Shown: piece by piece, positions 6,988-62,616 of the stretch
How positions within the stretch are numbered: the stretch's first letter is position 1
Layout: each line of letters starts with the position of its first letter
Assembly: GCA_030295235.1 (NCBI GenBank)
Contig: AP026129.1
Coordinates: forward strand, 186,001-250,000
Direction: 5' to 3'
Length of the DNA stretch: 64,000 bases
Source of the DNA: Fistulifera solaris
Lineage: Eukaryota > Bacillariophyta > Bacillariophyceae > Naviculales > Stauroneidaceae
Made by a program: the position numbers and the translations under genes
The notes under the pieces: generated by a model
The model's database searches: none
The model's input: only the letters and a program-made list of their open reading frames with translations
Told to the model about the DNA's origin: nothing

Positions 6988-7474
6988 TCAATTATCAATA
7001 CTCGATGTGTTACTTTTTTTAATTTGCATCAAGGCTTTATGTCGGTTCTCAAATGTATTAGCGGGTTTCGAATCATGTTTCGCTTGATAATATTCTTCGA
7101 TTCTCTCATCCATTCCTACAAGCTTCTGTTCAATCTTTTTGGCTCGTTCTTCTCGATTGCGCTGGTGTCGAGGCAGCTTCGGCGGTCGAATGGAGGGGGA
7201 AGCGACCTTTGCTGGTTCCCAACATTTCTAAATCCCAAGAGGGGTCCCAGCCGCCCTTATCAGCAACAAATTTTCCAAAGCTACCATTTTGTATCGCCTC
7301 TTTGCGTAAAGCAGCAGCTTTGCGTCGAGATACCATGGGAGGGATCCAAACTTTTTGTTCTCTACCATTCGAACCGAAGGTTTCAGGGCGTCCCCCTCCG
7401 TGTTGCGATAACTTTTTCAAAGCCGAAGGGAATCTCGTGGCGCTGGTCGAAAAGGATCTTGAGAACGAGTTCAT
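6988..7474 (-). CDS. Mitochondrial large-subunit ribosomal protein mL59-like (frame break at about 7195)
   Basis: The protein begins with a mitochondrial-type presequence (MNSFSRSFSTSATRF), followed by WIPPMVSRRKAAALRKEA, GGWDPSWD and, after a frame change, PPKLPRHQRNREERAKKIEQ and GMDERIEEYY. The order PP-x-SRRKAA-LRK, W-P-W-D, PPK-x-RN-E-AKKIE, M-ERI-YY fits the mitoribosomal mL59/YmL25 family. The two halves lie in different frames. The change falls at a five-C run (GGGGG at 7195-7199 on the plus strand), and one C fewer would make the frame continuous. The stop in the second frame is at 6988. It is tail-to-tail with the cytochrome b561 gene. The family call is from motif memory and is moderately sure. 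Confidence 0.6.
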
Positions 7475-8125
7475 TTTCTATTATAATAAAGGAGAAGAAA
7501 AAGGGGCGATCGAGAGACTAATAAATATACTGAATAATGAATAGGTTGCTACCAGACGTTACAGTGTTTGTGTTTGTTGTGATTATTTGTGATGCAACAT
7601 TGACGGCATCTCTAGCCTCTAGCTCTAAGTGTCACCAAGACGTACTGACGATCAGACGAAGTCTCTTTTCTCTTGCAAGGTTATTGCTTGGTTGGCTTGC
7701 TTGCTTTGCTTGATCATGGATCAGGTTTTCCCATATCAACCACGACTGATCCTCTGTCATGAAATAATGATATTTCGGATGAGCTGGTAATGGTACCGGT
7801 ACTCAGTACTCAGTGGCAAGGGGCAATCTACATTTCAGAAGTTACAGGAGGTCGGCTCGGCTCGTGCACCCTGGTCTACAAAAAACTATCGTCCATTGTC
7901 CATTTGCTCCTTTTCGAATTTCCACCCGGAAGAGCAGTTTTCCTAATTAGTAATGGAGCGCCGGCAGGGCGTGCTCCGTGCGGCAATCGCAAAAGTGGTC
8001 AACGAACATATCGCTCTTTCACTTTTCTGTCACATCAATAGCGTTGTTCTGTGAACCAACAAACTTGTCAGTTTTGCTTTTTGCTTGAAATAGACATACA
8101 ACCGCAATTTAAGATCAAATCTAAC
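7475..8125. other. Intergenic, divergent promoters of the mL59-like and silicanin-like genes
   Basis: No supported gene. It contains a GGTACCGGTACTCAGTACTC-like motif cluster near 7792. Confidence 0.5.
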
Positions 8126-9783
8126 ATGAGATTGAAGCTAGGAGTCATTCTTGGCTGCTTGGGTTTCACCTATGGTGGTTCTTTCGCGGAAGATGTCGTG
8201 CGTTCCTCCTTGAGAAATGGTAGAGCTCAACAACAGCAAATGGCTATCAAAAACGAACTTCTGGCTCGCGCTATCCCAATGACCAAATACAGGAAACTTC
8301 TGGAAGATCACGGTCTATCCATGCCTTCTCGAGAGTTGCAAGACCAAAACAATAATCAGCAATTGTACAGCTTCAGTGGGTATGCCATCAAATATGCCAC
8401 CTGTCAACCCGTTCAGTACTTCTCAGAAGATGTCATTCGCGCTGGAGAACACTCGCCGATGCTCACTCAAGATATCGTGGTTCTTCGATTGTGTCCTAGT
8501 AATGTTTGCTCTTCGAGCAGTCGGTACGGATGTCACTACAACTTTGCTGAATATGCTTTGACCTTATCCGACTATCTGGAGGTGATGTTGCAGTTCCGTG
8601 GCTATCAGAGAGAAAACGTATGCGCCTGGTGCGAGCAATGCGCCGCGGATGAATACAATTTGAATCAAAGTGGAAATAGACGTCGTTTGGAAGACAACGG
8701 AGTACAAGATAACGCTCAAGAAAACAACAACGCCGATCAGCAACAGGAACAAGCAAACCAAAACAATGAAGCAAACCAGGAGAATAATGCCAATCAAGAG
8801 AACTACGCTAACGCCGAGCAAGGAAACAACGATAATCAGGGAGGACAATAATGCGGAGCAAGCGAATAATGGAAACCAAAACAACAATGCCAATCAGGTC
8901 AACAATGAGAACCAGAGCGGAGCCGAGGGATGTGGCAAGTACTTCGATACGTACTGCACCGATTACGCGAGTGAATGTGTCAATAATAATCAAGACGGAG
9001 GAAACGAAGATTCTTCATATGTGGACTATGACTTGTATCTCGGATACCTCGGCTGTACTGAGGCAGCATACAACGGATACGGATATTACGTTCGCCCAAC
9101 ATGTGATGGAAAAGAGAAAACAATCAGGATGGCAGTCTATTATGACCAATACTGTTCCCGAACGGCGGAAGGAGTGAATATCAAAAGTCTGGGCTTAGGC
9201 TTCCATCAAAACGCTTTCCAAGAATTCTACTCGCCAGATTGCATTGATTGCTCCGAGAGTGTAAGTGTGTGAGACGAATCTCGTGTTGTGATAACATTTG
9301 TTTTGCTCACAAAATCTTATTCATAGCAATACCCTCCCTATTTTGACACCGGAAGTGCTTTTTGTAACAACTTACACTCCGCAAGTGCAAAATGCACCGG
9401 GGATTTGATGTATGACTTGTTTGATGGGGAAGCGGATCAATCATCCGAGTGCACATTCATCGAGGGCATACGTTTTGGAGCGTATGATTCTTCCGGTTCG
9501 CTCAGCACGTCTCACAGTAACAACGTTTGGAACGCGGAAGCTTCTAGAATGCAAAAACATTATGGTGGTCATCTCTCTTGGTATGGTGGTCTTTTTCATT
9601 ATTTATGCCTGTTATTTGCATCATGCAATGACAAACCTCTTGATCAAGTCTTTAAGTCATCGGGAATTACTTCCTGTTAGCCGACAGCAACGCCGTCGCC
9701 AAACAGGTGACAACAGTGTTGTAACTGGCAAACGTCGCCCAAGCGAGGATCTTGACGACGGCTTGTCCACTGGCTCGTTTTAA
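8126..9783 (+). CDS. Silicanin-like NQ-rich, cysteine-rich type I membrane protein (two frame breaks, one intron)
   Basis: The protein starts with a signal peptide (MRLKLGVILGCLGF). A propeptide follows, with an RxL site (SRELQ, near residue 72). Next come a first Cys-rich domain (ATCQ, MLTQDIVVLRLCPSNVC, GCHYNFAEY, CAWCEQCA), an Asn/Gln-rich linker of about 75 residues (8700-8930), a second Cys-rich domain (GCGKYFDTYCTDYASEC ... DCIDC, AFCNN, AKCTG, ECTF), a transmembrane helix (VVISLGMVVFFIIYACY) and a short basic tail. This layout matches silicanins, diatom silica-vesicle membrane proteins with an RxL pro-site, NQ-rich part, conserved Cys domain and C-terminal anchor. The frame changes at GGG 8839-8841 and at A5 9553-9557; one base fewer at each restores it. 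An intron, GTAAGTGTG...TTCATAG, runs from about 9260 to 9328. ATG 8126 begins the signal peptide. Confidence 0.7.
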
Positions 9784-9863: not shown

Positions 9864-12800
9864 TTACATTGCCTCAAGCAAAGCTCGAGCCGTATGCCTA
9901 AGGAAAACATCCGGATGGGGATAGTTTGCGATGGGAGTCAGCAATTCTGCGGCTCTATCTAGCAGAGCTCTACGTTCTGGATCTCCTTGCTCTTTGGTGT
10001 ATGCTAGACGCCAACATAATTCTCCCATTAGAGTATGAGCGCGGCGTTCGAGCTCAATATCATAAATGCTGCTTTCTTCATCCATCACCCACGCTTCGAG
10101 ATCCTCCAAAACGTCTGTATCGTACTGCTCACTTTCTTCCATAAGGATGAGCTCCAATACGTACGCCAATGGATTGAAGACTGGACTCCAGAAAGAAACT
10201 TGGCCTGATTCATGGTAAGGGTTGATGATATACTTCTTTAACAACCAATCCGCGTCTTTGGATCTGTCCACGAGCATCAAAACGGATATGACTGGTAAGA
10301 CTATTAGCATCGTATCATCAATGTCCATCCCATCCACCTGGGGCAGTAACTCGTCCATTATGTAATCTGCTCTATGTTCGGCTTGTTCTTGTTCTTGTGA
10401 AAGGTATAACCACTGAACACTTTCAGCGACAGAAACAAGTGCAAAATCGCAACCGTACTCAGCGACCATGTCAGAGCTGTACGACGCGATGTCATAAATT
10501 GACAAGATAGTATCAATACATCCATTGGCTTGCTCGAAATTACCTAGACGGGACTCGTGCGACGCTTTGATGGAAAGTGCGCGACAAATGTGTACCGGGT
10601 GCCCGTTGTTGTTGGCCTCGTATAAAAGGGTTTCAATCAGTTTTGCTTGCTCTTCTGGCATATCATTAGGATATTCGCTTTTATGTGCATCAAGCTTCAA
10701 TACGCACAATGATGATATGATAGGCATCATGAGCGCTTTACTCATACCCGGAATCTTTGATGCACTTTTGATGATACTATACGCATCTTCAAAAAGAAAA
10801 TACTTTCCTCGGGGTCTCCAAGTCTCTGATGACAAAGTCCTACGCAAATGTGAAGTCTCAAGATAAGGTCAAGCACCATCGGCTTAGCTTTTACTTGAAT
10901 CCACTCGCTGTCGGGATCTTTCTCTTCTTCGGCGTTGAATATACTCTCGAAGGAAAGTTCTAGAGCGTCTTCATATAGCTCCAGGCTTTGTGCGGACAGA
11001 TCCCATTCTTCTAAACGAGCTCCAACGGCAAGTGCAAGTGGTGCTGCTTTGCAAAAATCGCCACATGCCTTCCAGTGTTCGAAAATCGTCAAAAGACGTG
11101 AGATGTTGTTCTGCTCAAGAACCAAAACTTTATCGCCTTCCATAGTTTCAGCAATAAGTCGATGCAGCTCGTGCTTCCTTTCCTTCAGCATTGTTGCGAG
11201 TACGTTATTTCGCCACATAGCGTGACTGAATTGAAAGTAACGGTCATCCAAGGTGTTTCGCGAATGTGAGCGGCTTGTTTTCGAATGGCTACTAAATGTA
11301 TGCTCATCTTCGGAAAGAGATATCGATTTGAGAGAGATCGTTTCATCATCGTCTTTGCTATGCTCGACAAGAATCATTTCATCAACCGCTAAATCTAGTG
11401 CATTCTCGATCTCAATTTCGGCCATTTCGGGGTGAACTTGAATGACATCAGTTAGTGCGAATTCAAGCCCTAAAACTGCGCATGTCTGCAACACCTTCCG
11501 AACGCGACTATCCAGTGAATCGACACGGCTCAAGAATGATTCTTCCATCACCGCTGCATTATTGGTCGACGAGAAATTTCGCTGCAAAATGTTTCAGTGC
11601 GATATGCAGCAAATTCAATATAACATGCGTGTAACCTACCTTTTCACGCAGCCCTTCTGCGTTCCACCTCAACACCCCTTCGACCAGCTCAAGTGTCTTT
11701 TTTTCTTTTGATATTTTCTAGAGTCTGAACAACAAAAACAGGCAGCCCCCCGGTCCTTTGAAAGATGTCAGTGCATATTCCTTCTGAGACAGAACTCTTG
11801 TCAACTTCCAATATTAACGCAATCAGGTCGCGGATGTCGCCAAACTCGAGAGGACCGAGAGAAATCTCGGTCAACTTGCCTTGCAAATCGTTCTCTTCGG
11901 CGAGAGCCGATGATAAACGGCGCAATGCTTGTTTGTCATGTGATCTAGTGGCGCAAACAAGAAGCATTTTCGGCGATATTTTGCACAAAGCTCGAAAAAT
12001 TTTCCAGCTGAACGTGTCCGTCCATTGAAAGTCATCAAGAACTACAATAGCCATATCAGCAAAATCTGAAACACAAACAAATGCTTTTGAAAGGAAGTCT
12101 GCAAGTTCGTCCATTGTGGGTACATGTCCATCGACGTGCGTAATCGGACTAGCACTATCCAGCCCGAAAAACTGCGAGCCCACAATGTCTGCGTACTCAA
12201 ATGGATAATCAAGTTGCTCGCATATCCAACAAAGTTTCTCAAAGTACGGAACTGAATCTGCCAAGCGGTTCACGTTTGAGTCCGCACTTGCGACGGTGCT
12301 ATCGTCAATCGTACCTTTGCGCCTCTGAAATTCCGAACAGACTGTGTTTTCATGGATAATCTCATGAGTGATTCGCGTGCACTGCGCTGCTTATGAAGCG
12401 ACATCCCTAGAAGTGTCGGACGGTCGTTGCCGATGTCACGAGTGTTTCTAGTTCGCTCTACATTTCGCAGCTGATGGACAGAGTGACTAAGTGCGTCTTT
12501 CCTTGCTTTATTTTGCTCACCACCGTGTGAGGAATACCCAGAGAGAAGCCTGCTACGCTTTGAGAAACTTCCACGCCTAGCAGAGCTTTTAAAAGTTGAG
12601 CTCCTAGATGTGTGTTCCGTTTCAGTAATTGAGAAGTCTGTGGGTTCGCTGTATTCGTTGTGCTGAGTGTGGGATATCGATTGATGCATTAGTGAAGGAC
12701 GCTTCTCGTTAGATGAAGAATGGGAAGAAACAGTGCCATGAGACGATAGCTGCCTCGATGTATGAGACGATCGACTCAATGATGCATTTTGTACCATTGC

Positions 12801-31070: not shown

Positions 31071-31388
31071 GGTCCAGAAATTCTGGACCATTTGATTTCA
31101 TTCATACAGAAAATCTGCATTTCATTCAAACAGAAAATCGGAGACGGTCCAGAATTTCTGGACCAGTTGTATTTCATTCAAACAGAAAATCAGACACGGT
31201 CAAGAACTTCTGGACCAGTTGAGTTTCATTCATACAGAAAATCTGGGGCAGTCCAAATATTCTGGACCAGTGGAATTTCATTCATACAGAAAATCGGGGG
31301 CAGTCCAGAACTTCTGGACCAGTGGAGTTTCATTCAAAACGAAAATCGGAGACGGTTCAGAATTTCCGGACCAGTTGAATTTCGGAAA
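31071..31388. repeat. Tandem array of six 52-bp units with internal palindrome
   Basis: Units start at 31071, 31146, 31198, 31250, 31302 and 31354. The period is 52 bp, except the first gap of 75, which contains an extra 23-bp copy of the TTTCATTCATACAGAAAATC part. Each unit holds an inverted repeat of the type GGTCCAGAA-N-TTCTGGACC. No stop codon occurs in any forward frame inside the array. Because 52 is not a multiple of 3, the same peptide rotates through the frames, so it is unlikely to be an ordinary gene. It lies 180 bp downstream of DUF6824 copy 2. Confidence 0.9.
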
Positions 31389-58234: not shown

Positions 58235-61200
58235 TCCTCCCTGTCGGCTGCTAAGATTAACTGCGTCATGAGTCCTTCTCTAACAACAGGCACCAAAAGA
58301 TCATGGATTTTCTCTGTCACATTCTTGGTTTCCAGATCTGCAATATTCCTTTCCGATCGAATAAACTTCACAACCAGCCTGGCTTCTTCCTTCTCCGTTG
58401 CAGCCATCATCTCCCTTATAAAATGCATTCGAATATCAATGTGTTTCGTCCTATTCCCCACAACTTGGTTTTCCATCAAGAAGATTGCGCCCGTGTTATC
58501 TTCAAACAAGGTAGCCGGTCGAATCTTCACCTTCGGAAACAATTCTTCGAATAACATCTGCAAAACTTGATGTCCGTCGCACACGTAGATGCCGCATAAT
58601 ATTCCGCCTCCGTACTTGACAGTGTCACCGCCGGTTGCAACTTGCTTGAAAAGCCACACAAACAACCTCCAATGGTAACAAAGTAGCCAGTAACACTTTT
58701 CCGCGTCTCCTTGTTCGTAGCAAAGTTTGAATCCACCCATGCGTAAACCTTCAAATTAACAGGCTCGCGCAACTTCAAATGAACGTCCGTACTCTCGAGA
58801 TAGCCGACCAATCTCTTCATCGCTCTCCAATGTTCTTCACCTGGCGAATCCATAAACATTGCAAGCTCCCTAACTGCATTTCCACATTCCGGAGCTACTT
58901 TCCGCACCAGCCACATGAGACGTCCGAGAAACTTCCGATACTGATCCTTATTAACTGGATCGCCTTCGTTCTTCACAAGCGATTCCCCTGGATAGCCCGG
59001 TGTCTTCTCAGCTTTCAACGGTCCAATCAGCTCCTTCCAATCCTTTACTATCTCGTCTTTGTACTCATCCATTCGCACTTCGTAGAACTCTCCTGCTTCA
59101 TCCGATTTTCTCTCGTACCAAACTCCCAAGTGTTTCTGAATCGGGCCCATTTCGGTAATGTTGAAGCGCTTCTTGATCTCTCTCTTGAACCAATTGATTT
59201 CTTCTTGGGGACCGGCAAGGATACAATCATCGACATACACCACAATGATTAATACTGTCTCGCCGTTCACCACTTTAAACCAGACACACGGATCCGCAGC
59301 ACTCTGAATAAGCCCCAGCTTCCTCAATTGGGCACAGTAGAGCATGAAGTACTCTCGTGGACTCTGGACCAAACCGTACATCGCCCTCTCCAATAGGATG
59401 ATGTAGTCAATTAACTCTTCATGCGTGATGTACCCAAACTCATATAGCCCAAAGGGCCATTCAAGATACACCTCCTCTCTCAACTTCGCTTCTAGAAACG
59501 CAGCCTCAACGTCAATAACTTCAGTGACCCACATCTTCTTCCACATGTAAAGTACCACTGCCAAAACCATTCGAACCGACATGTCCGATGCAACAGGTGA
59601 ATGCGAAGAGTGAAGTCCACACCAGGGATTTGAACAAACCCCCGGCACAAGTCCGAGCTTTGAAACGAATTCCCGTTGCCTCTTTCTTCTTTTTGAAAAT
59701 CCACTTCGGCGTAACAGGCTTCCGTCCTCTCTCCTTCATCTGCTTTCTAGGAACCATCTTCCAAGCATCTCTTTTAATGAAATTTTCAATCTCCTTCTTC
59801 ATTGCCTCTTTCCACTTGTCTGCATCCGGACCAACCAAGGCTTCCTTGTAAGTTTTCGGCGCACCAGGATCCGACGCCAACTCCGTATTCAAAACGTAGT
59901 GAAAATAACCTTCCGACACATCGATTGTATTGATCTCTCCTTTGGCGCTTCATTGTTGGGTTATATGAAGTGTCCAGCCTTGCCATTTCTCTATTCAGTC
60001 TTTTCATCGTCGATTGCGTCTCTTTCCGTTGATTCGGTGCTGGAGTATTGTCCGCCGTAGCCTCGGGTACCAGAGCTTCCGTAGGACCTTCCACAGCCAC
60101 TTCGACAACTTCCTCTGCCGCTTTCTCTTCCACAACTTTCCTCCCAGAGCTTCCGTAGGACCTTCCACAGCCACTTCGACAACTTCCTCTGCCGCTTTCT
60201 CTTCCACAACTTTCCTCCCTGCTCCAGCATCGACATCTTCGAGCATCACCGGTTTGATTGCGACTTCCTCCCCAATTTGGTCATCCTTTAAGTCGACTTC
60301 CATTCCAGCTGCAAACATCCTTAACTCTGATGCAACTGAAGCACTCGATCCATGCCAGTCTGCCCAAGTGACGTCACGTGAGAGAATGACAATATTTTCA
60401 TCCGGCTTGTAAACACGATACGTATCGCCCGCATGCGAATCCGCGTACCCAACCATCACGCATTTCACTGACTTCTTCTCCAACTTGGGCTGTTTGTTTC
60501 GTAAAGTCACATATCCGATCCGCCCCCACTGAACCAAGTGTTTCAGTATCTTAGGATGCTCGCCGTACCACGCATAATCAGGGCTCGATTCCACATTCCG
60601 ATTCGGGACAGCGTTATCCAACTTCGTTGCCGTGTGAACAGCCTCGGGCCATAACTTTCCTTGATGCTCATCCGACAACTTCGCCGCCAACATCATCGCA
60701 AGGGCCTTATCGCGAATTGTCGTGAACTTCCTCTCAACAACACCGTTCATCTGCGGAGTATGCGGGGCAGTAAACTCCATAGTTATGCCCCTCGCCTCAC
60801 AGATCTCCTTGAATGTTCCGTTCTCGCCTGCATTATCACACCGAATGTACTTTACGATTACGTTCGGATCTCCTTTCAAGCGATCAAGAAATAGCGTCAT
60901 GACTTTGCCAATCATCGACTTCTTTGTAACGAAGTAACTCCAAGCTTTGCGCGTGTAATCATCCACCAATAAGATCCAGTAGCAACTCTGTCCCAACGAT
61001 TTCTTGTAGGGCCCACTCGTGTCCACGTAGAATCGTTCTCCTTTCGCCGTTGCTTTGATAGCCGTCGACTTGCACACCGCCTTTGCTTTCGCCTTCGCAT
61101 ACGCGCACGCCTCGCATGTCTCCTTGGTTCCAGTTAACTCGATTCCCAACTGTTTCATGAGACTCTTCAAAGGAATGTCGCTTGCGTGTCCGTACATATC

Positions 61201-62616
61201 GTGCGCAGCATTTATGTCCATCTTCACTTTGGTCTCCACCGCATGGACATCTGACTTAACAACGCTAGCCTTCAAGTAGTATAACCCATAGTGTGACTGA
61301 GGTACCGTCAACACACTCTTTCCGGAGGGGTCAGTGATCTTCATCGCACAACTGGTTATCTCAATCTTGCACCCTTGCTTCACTAAAGCCCCAGTACTGA
61401 TAATATTCTTCGCGAACGTCGGCGCCACCTTGACTTCACTCAACTTCATAGTACCACCCACAGTAGCGAGCATGAGTGTACCCTTCTTGTGTACTTGGAC
61501 TTCCTTTCCGTCACCGACGACCAAATACTCCTTCGTCGAAATAACATCGCTCAAAATCGTTTCATCCACAACAACATGGCACGTCGCTCCACTGTCGAGA
61601 AGGAACCTTTCCTTGTCTTTGACTCTCGACACTTCGACCGCGCCAACTTGATGAACGACGCCACAGAACTCTTCGCCGCCTTTGCCGACCTCATAGCACA
61701 TGCCGACGAACATGTTCAGGTCCTTGTTCTCCGGCTTCGGATCCTTGCCGTTCGACTTGTCCGGACACTCGCGAGAGAAATGGCCTTCCTTGCCACAGTT
61801 GAAGCAGACTTTCTTCTTGTCGCTCTTGCACTCCACTGCCTTGTGTTCTTGTTTGCCGCAGTTGCGGCACTTTCCCTTGAACTTCTTCTTAAAACCACCC
61901 TTGCCCTTTTCGACGTTTAATGCTAAATTTTTATTTTCTTTTTTGTCTTTTTTCTTTTTCTTCGTTTTCTTCATCGTTCTTGGGCTTGAAACAGCGCTTC
62001 CACTTGTTCCGGATCTCCTTCTCGAGGTCTTCAATCGAGGTCTCGTTGATCTTTCCGCTCAACTTCGTGATCACATCCGAATACTCGTCAGGAAGGTTGG
62101 CCAAGTAGTGGGCCTTCAAAACTTAAACTTGGCTTCACATACTGCGATCCGATTGTCTTCAAACGGTTCTGCAACCGATCGCACTCCAGGAAGAACTTGT
62201 CAGGGTCATCTTCCTTCGACGCCAACTTGCACCGTCCGAACTCCGCCAACACTTCCGCCAAATCTTCCTCGCTGTTCCGGGCGTACTTAGCATCCAAAAG
62301 CTTGAATGCGTCTCTCGCATCGCCATCCGCTCTCTTGACAAGACCCAAAGGAACGCCTTCGCACGCAATCACCAACAAATCGATGATCTCGAGATTGCTT
62401 CGATACAACTCCTTGTCCTTCGGCCGTCGCCGTCGCTCCCATCGCAACTTCCTTCGTGGGGATCTCGGCCTTCAGGTCATCGAACACACTCGTCCAACCT
62501 CTCTTCGTGATCAACGACATCGTCTTGAACTTCCAGTCATCGTACGACTTCTCAGCGACCTTGTCGTCCAACGGGTAGAAGGTCAAAGCCCTCATCTTCT
62601 CTCCCTCGTCGGTCAT
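58210..62616 (-). CDS. Copia gag-pol polyprotein (multiple frame breaks)
   Basis: Gag starts at ATG 62616 (MTDEGEKMRALTFYPL) with the copia Gag pattern (DDWKFKTMSLITKRGW; ECDRLQNRLKTIG; HYLANLPDEYSDVITKL). Two zinc knuckles follow (CRNCGKQEHKAVEC; CFNCGKEGHFSREC, about 61800). The protease is at FLLDSGATCHVV (about 61600). Integrase has GHASDIPLKSL, ILLVDDYTRKAWSYF, CDNAGENGTF and a final Glu in NGVVERKFTTI (about 61200-60720). Reverse transcriptase begins WIFKKKKEATGIRFKAR (about 59700) and has YVDDCILAG (about 59240). RNase H has the aspartate of YAWVDSNFA and the Glu of LSSTEAEYYAAST (about 58600). Frame changes lie near 62450, 62110, 61935, about 60000-60220, 59650 and 58600. The last codons run into the 3' LTR. 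Confidence 0.88.
58235..58246 (-). other. Polypurine tract
   Basis: On the element's sense strand the sequence next to the 3' LTR is GACAGGGAGGA, directly followed by the LTR's TG. This is the position and composition expected for the plus-strand primer. Confidence 0.7.
60072..60219. repeat. 74-bp tandem duplication inside the copia pol region
   Basis: The unit beginning AGAGCTTCCGTAGGACC occurs twice in succession with no visible difference, in the linker between integrase and reverse transcriptase. Since 74 is not divisible by 3 it shifts the frame; the peptide EEKAAEEVVEVAVEGPTEAL is read in one frame from one copy and recurs in another frame from the other. Confidence 0.85.

Follow-up and report, generated by a model that had tools for sequence, protein, structure and literature searches.

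The silicanin Sin1 of Thalassiosira pseudonana is described as having a signal peptide, an RXL site, an NQ-rich domain that holds all 18 luminal cysteines, one helix and a 20-residue cytosolic tail for which the published account gives no known motifs (PMC5525289). In the recombinant Sin1 lumen all 18 cysteines are reported in disulfides, and this lumen responds to pH by clustering and, together with polyamines, promotes the formation of silica (PMC5525289, PMC6599040). Sin1 is located in the membrane of the silica vesicle, and the silica incorporates its N-terminal domain; knockouts keep about two-thirds of the silica and have weaker walls (PMC5525289, PMC6599040). The RXL site is called typical of many biosilica-associated proteins (PMC5525289), the only proteins in which such sites are said to have been found so far (PMC5647440). 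Cytosolic contacts have been proposed for a second group, the silicalemma-associated proteins or SAPs (PMC5647440).

The window analysed here is a 64,000-nucleotide stretch of Fistulifera solaris DNA (positions 186001-250000 of contig C10, from an assembly of 51.7 Mb and 61 contigs). Its gene W shares with Sin1 and Sin2, as these are described (PMC5525289, PMC6599040), the signal peptide, the RXL site, an NQ-rich, cysteine-laden lumen (18 cysteines in Sin1 and 18 in W) and a single C-terminal helix. Unlike Sin1, it has a tail of 54 rather than 20 residues and an RXL pro-region of about 50 rather than 30 residues. W also resembles the SAPs in its signal peptide, RXL site, single helix and cytosolic part of possible function, whereas the SAPs have a serine-rich region and a conserved cytosolic domain of their own (PMC5647440), a distinction drawn from their description only.

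Structure of the window gene and its partner copy

W consists of two plus-strand exons, 8126-9260 and 9327-9783, with 529 codons. The initial annotation had named a signal peptide, an SREL site, two Cys domains flanking an Asn/Gln tract, a membrane helix and a basic tail; each of these could be placed, together with an intron that it had not named and the two frame breaks that it had mentioned:

8126..8185, plus strand: signal-peptide-like N-terminus, residues 1-20; a hydrophobic stretch after MR, called by hydropathy and inspection only
8186..8338, plus strand: pro-region ending in RxL (REL, residues 69-71), with SREL at 8327-8338; all 10 pairs of the family have an RxL ahead of their first luminal Cys
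8339..8671, plus strand: first Cys module, residues 72-182, 7 Cys; from the family alignment and paralogue matches
8672..8930, plus strand: Asn/Gln-rich tract, residues 183-268 (86 residues), 52% N+Q, no Cys; from composition, with pLDDT <50 in the partner-copy model
8839..8839, plus strand: frame-breaking single extra base (GGG versus GG), from alignment to the C9 partner copy
8931..9260, plus strand: second Cys module, exon 1 part; family alignment
9261..9326, plus strand: GT-AG intron of 66 bases, phase 0, across which the frame continues; 76.9% identical between the copies, the partner intron having 69 bases
9327..9558, plus strand: second Cys module, exon 2 part; family alignment
9553..9553, plus strand: frame-breaking single extra base (AAAAA versus AAAA), from alignment to the C9 partner copy
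9559..9618, plus strand: single transmembrane helix, about residues 456-475; hydropathy maximum 2.6, called by hydropathy and inspection only
9619..9780, plus strand: basic cytosolic tail of 54 residues, with one amino-acid difference between the copies and a short pattern common to the paralogues P1 and P2

Residue numbers assume that both frame breaks are passed over, which gives a protein of 529 residues (530 in the partner copy); read directly, the frame opened at 8126 hits a stop near 8851 and resumes one frame over until the end of exon 1. The pro-region holds a second RxL (RKL, residue 56). The second Cys module spans residues 269-455 with 11 Cys, bringing the luminal total to 18, and the lumen overall is 22% N+Q. 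The tail, 54 residues or 55 if a 19-residue helix window is used, carries 9 K/R and 6 D/E. The parts of W that were searched gave no match in Pfam or PDB. A structural model of the partner copy's exon 1, weak overall, gave pLDDT 70-88 for blocks of the Cys modules.

The partner copy on contig C9 (H) runs from a start codon through a GT-AG intron to a stop, with both exons open. Neither extra base of the window copy, at 8839 in a G run and at 9553 in an A run, is present in it. Its single open frame passes through the NQ tract, so the two Cys-rich halves belong to one gene, and the alternative that they are separate genes was rejected on this ground. The exons of the two copies are 94.1% and 94.5% identical; identity falls to 76.9% in the intron and to 72.4% and 71.4% in the upstream and downstream flanks. 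With the breaks passed over, dN/dS between the copies (NG86) is 0.11 overall; ahead of the first break it is 0.14, past this break 0.10 and past the second 0.05; the tail codons differ by 4 silent changes and 1 replacing change. W is a real, still-conserved gene encoding one protein. Frame breaks are present in 6/20 family copies (the window copy, P1_C21, P1_C22, P2_C22, P4_C24 and P6_C40), the one in P2_C22 being inferred from its divergent tail and only some of the family's breaks having been checked base by base. Neighbouring reading frames also carry single-base indels relative to C9.

Around the gene, the window has a GC content of 43-51%. A plus-strand frame at 6209-6742 matches prokaryotic cytochrome b561 (PF01292, E 8.6e-16), and a minus-strand frame at 7133-7477, with single-base indels versus C9 inside it, shows a weak, below-cut-off match to the mitochondrial ribosomal protein mL59. 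A long minus-strand reading frame at 9867-11593 is broken near 10794, where C9 is one base longer; neither piece has a Pfam match at E 0.001. Farther along, a 52-base tandem repeat in five copies occupies 31119-31383, and two identical 74-base tandem copies at 60070-60219 lie within a 676-codon minus-strand open reading frame (60004-62034), where the GC skew is strongly negative.

A family of paired genes and its Sin2-like members

Searches of the genome with W residues 1-184 (16 matches), P3 (28 matches) and exon 1 of P7 (13 matches) revealed at least ten genes of this kind, each with a Cys-rich lumen, an RxL and one helix, and each present twice, on the two contigs of a pair (C9/C10, C17/C18, C21/C22, C23/C24, C30/C31 and C40/C41). 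They are labelled W, P1-P7, S1 and S2, and 20 copies were modelled, that of P4 without a clear start codon. Partner proteins are about 88-98% identical for each of the ten genes, a pairing that suggests an allodiploid genome, F. solaris being described as having 42 homoeologous chromosome pairs (PMC5935921). P1 and P2 cluster on C21/C22, and P3, P5 and P6 on C40/C41 (C40:278117-289724 and C41:251579-263445); S1 and S2, only 28% identical, adjoin on C30/C31. Identity between groups is 18-46% among the eight pairs compared, and 20-28% between W and the other P groups.

W, P1, P3, P4, P5 and P7 have 18 luminal cysteines each, P2 has 20, S1 and S2 have 16, and P6 has 12. Taking one copy of each pair, all ten have an RxL on the N-terminal side of their first luminal Cys, versus 2.2 expected after shuffling, whereas in the pro-region of W by itself an RxL is unsurprising (shuffle probability 0.51). 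That the NQ tract lies between two Cys-rich modules had been proposed as the mark of a distinct subtype. This we reject because S1 and P2 likewise have an NQ-rich linker separating their Cys modules; in Sin1, as published, the 18 cysteines lie inside the NQ-rich domain (PMC5525289). W is distinguished by a longer cytosolic tail and a separate branch, not by where its NQ tract lies. The S1 linker itself is long and repeat-like, made of Gln, Glu and Asn.

The Sin2-like pair was chosen through primers and guides printed for T. pseudonana (PMC6599040), 13 translated residues of which stand in for TpSin1 and TpSin2. Sin2_for translates to DDGSGL and Sin2_seq_for to QRIATYP; S2 has the counterparts SDGSGI and NKIVTYP in the correct order, 43 codons apart. 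The joint score of these two forward primers was 49 for S2, 37 for S1, up to 32 for P1 and P2 and 27 for W. In 100 shuffle rounds the best joint score was 39 and the mean 33.8, above the value for W; the joint test was picked after the single-primer scores were known, and its null takes the best of 10 shuffled proteins, with 20 copies scored.

The scan with single oligonucleotides covered eight printed sequences (39/48 frames open), and its shuffle fractions are uncorrected for that number. Sin2_seq_for reached 0.020 on S1 and S2. Sin1_rev reached 0.010 on P3 (RLRHSL/RLGHSL), a match taken as chance because it is read on the strand wrong for a reverse primer; the strand is likewise unfit for Sin2_rev, at 0.020 on P1. 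Sin1_gRNA-2 (CQQCVEM) scored an equal 27 for S2_C30, P2 and H (0.105). Sin1_seq (AWCYM/AWCEQ) fits W and H best, with a score of 22 at the level of chance (0.425), and opposes a placement on C30/C31. Sin1 should share the branch of Sin2 because the two are 55% identical (PMC5525289), yet the published 18 Cys and 20-residue tail of Sin1 fit P3 better than S1 or S2 with their 16 Cys. From these short matches, we regard the identification of the C30/C31 pair S2 as good for a predicted Sin2 counterpart and weaker for Sin1.

Relation to the silicanins and the long-tailed branch

With the database size set to 2e7, blastp of W against the Sin2-like pair S2 gave no pairwise match (E = 13), while the two copies of P3 gave 1.8e-9 and 1.8e-5. 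Profile comparison linked W to the S pairs with a probability of 89% (hhalign, E 2.3e-6). For the other P pairs, from which P2_C22 was omitted, the probability was 99.9% (5.9e-35); all these E-values are pairwise rather than database-search values. The label "silicanin-like" that W had first been given is thus backed by its architecture and by the profile link to the Sin2-like genes, but not by pairwise similarity to them. In one published rule silicanins have a BLAST E below 1e-50 to TpSin1 (PMC5525289); in another, homologues are longer than 300 residues and match TpSin1 at an E below 1e-5 (PMC10328945). W has 529 residues; with the Sin2-like pair replacing TpSin1 its E is 13, and by this proxy it would fall outside the first of these rules. 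Of the silicanin features, a hydrophobic N-terminus is found in both copies, along with the RXL, the NQ-rich lumen and a type I arrangement with one C-terminal helix; the luminal Cys agree with those of Sin1 in their number, 18, and the Sin-like pairs here have 16. The 20-residue tail of Sin1 has no like in W.

Like W, S1 and S2 have an RxL, one helix and two Cys modules separated by a variable linker, and they resemble W at the profile level; they differ in their 16 luminal Cys, an intron before the linker and tails of 16 and 31 residues. P1 and P2 form the nearest branch and have long tails with GD...NS[GV][IV], and the intron of P2 lies at a place similar to that of W; these proteins are nonetheless longer (727-788 residues) and only 27-28% identical to W. 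The tree joins W with P1 at 92/92 and W, P1 and P2 at 96/96, apart from P3, P4-P7 and S, with a warning from the tree program of long branches meeting, W with P1 included. Tails measure 49-111 residues in W, P1 and P2 and 14-31 in the other groups, and an alignment of the W, P1 and P2 tails, short and gapped, shows GD, NS[GV][IV] and R..S in common. On these comparisons W is a distant silicanin-like paralogue in a separate long-tailed branch with P1 and P2. The possible novelty lies in the conserved long cytosolic tail common to W and its two sister genes; no long-tailed silicanin type was found in the available text of the silicanin literature (PMC5525289, PMC6599040, PMC10328945, PMC5647440, PMC9723790, PMC8027222 and the reference list of PMC11151724).

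Function and alternative readings

We favour, with somewhat better than even confidence, the reading that W is a type I membrane protein of the secretory pathway and of the silicanin-like superfamily, a paralogue of Sin1 and Sin2 specialised by its cytosolic tail, and that it most likely works in the membrane of the silica deposition vesicle or in the wall-adjacent plasma membrane. By analogy, the signal peptide would take W into the ER, the RxL would serve as a processing site and the Cys modules would fold with disulfides, while the NQ tract would stay flexible as a possibly self-associating insert. The tail may contact cytosolic partners, the role of W itself being a putative one at the silica vesicle or the cell surface.

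The two frame breaks of the window copy, which its partner lacks, could mean that it is a recent pseudogene and that only the C9 copy works. This is improbable, and we rejected it as the main reading: the breaks are probably assembly errors rather than decay, because both are single bases in short homopolymers, dN/dS is low past each of them, and breaks recur in other family copies and in neighbouring frames. It is more improbable still that W is a canonical silicanin and this genome's orthologue of Sin1 or Sin2. Its 18 luminal Cys, the number published for Sin1 (PMC5525289), and the best match of the Sin1_seq primer speak for orthology, though shuffles often reach that match; the lack of pairwise similarity to the Sin2-like pair, the joint primer score below the shuffle mean and far below that of S2, and the 54-residue tail all speak against it.

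A possible, though clearly less probable, alternative to the favoured reading is that W takes no direct part in forming silica and acts instead as a receptor or adhesion protein of the cell surface, in a diverse superfamily where RxL may be a general processing site. The 18-46% identity between groups suggests more than one job, and within the silicanin literature consulted a silica role has been shown, among silicanins, for Sin1 only; against this, all ten pairs carry an RxL, a site placed so far only in biosilica-associated proteins (PMC5647440) and typical of many of them (PMC5525289). Within the silica-related reading, it is a tentative and rather doubtful extension that in the long-tailed branch of W, P1 and P2 the tails carry a conserved Ser/Arg pattern and couple the silica-vesicle lumen to the cytosol, as a membrane link to cytosolic partners, for example the cytoskeleton, like that proposed for membrane proteins of the silica vesicle.

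The silicanin-like proteins of this one genome are far more diverse than the Sin1/Sin2 type. For the shaping of silica from the cytosol through the vesicle membrane, a long tail on a silicanin-like lumen, conserved in both copies, offers a concrete candidate.
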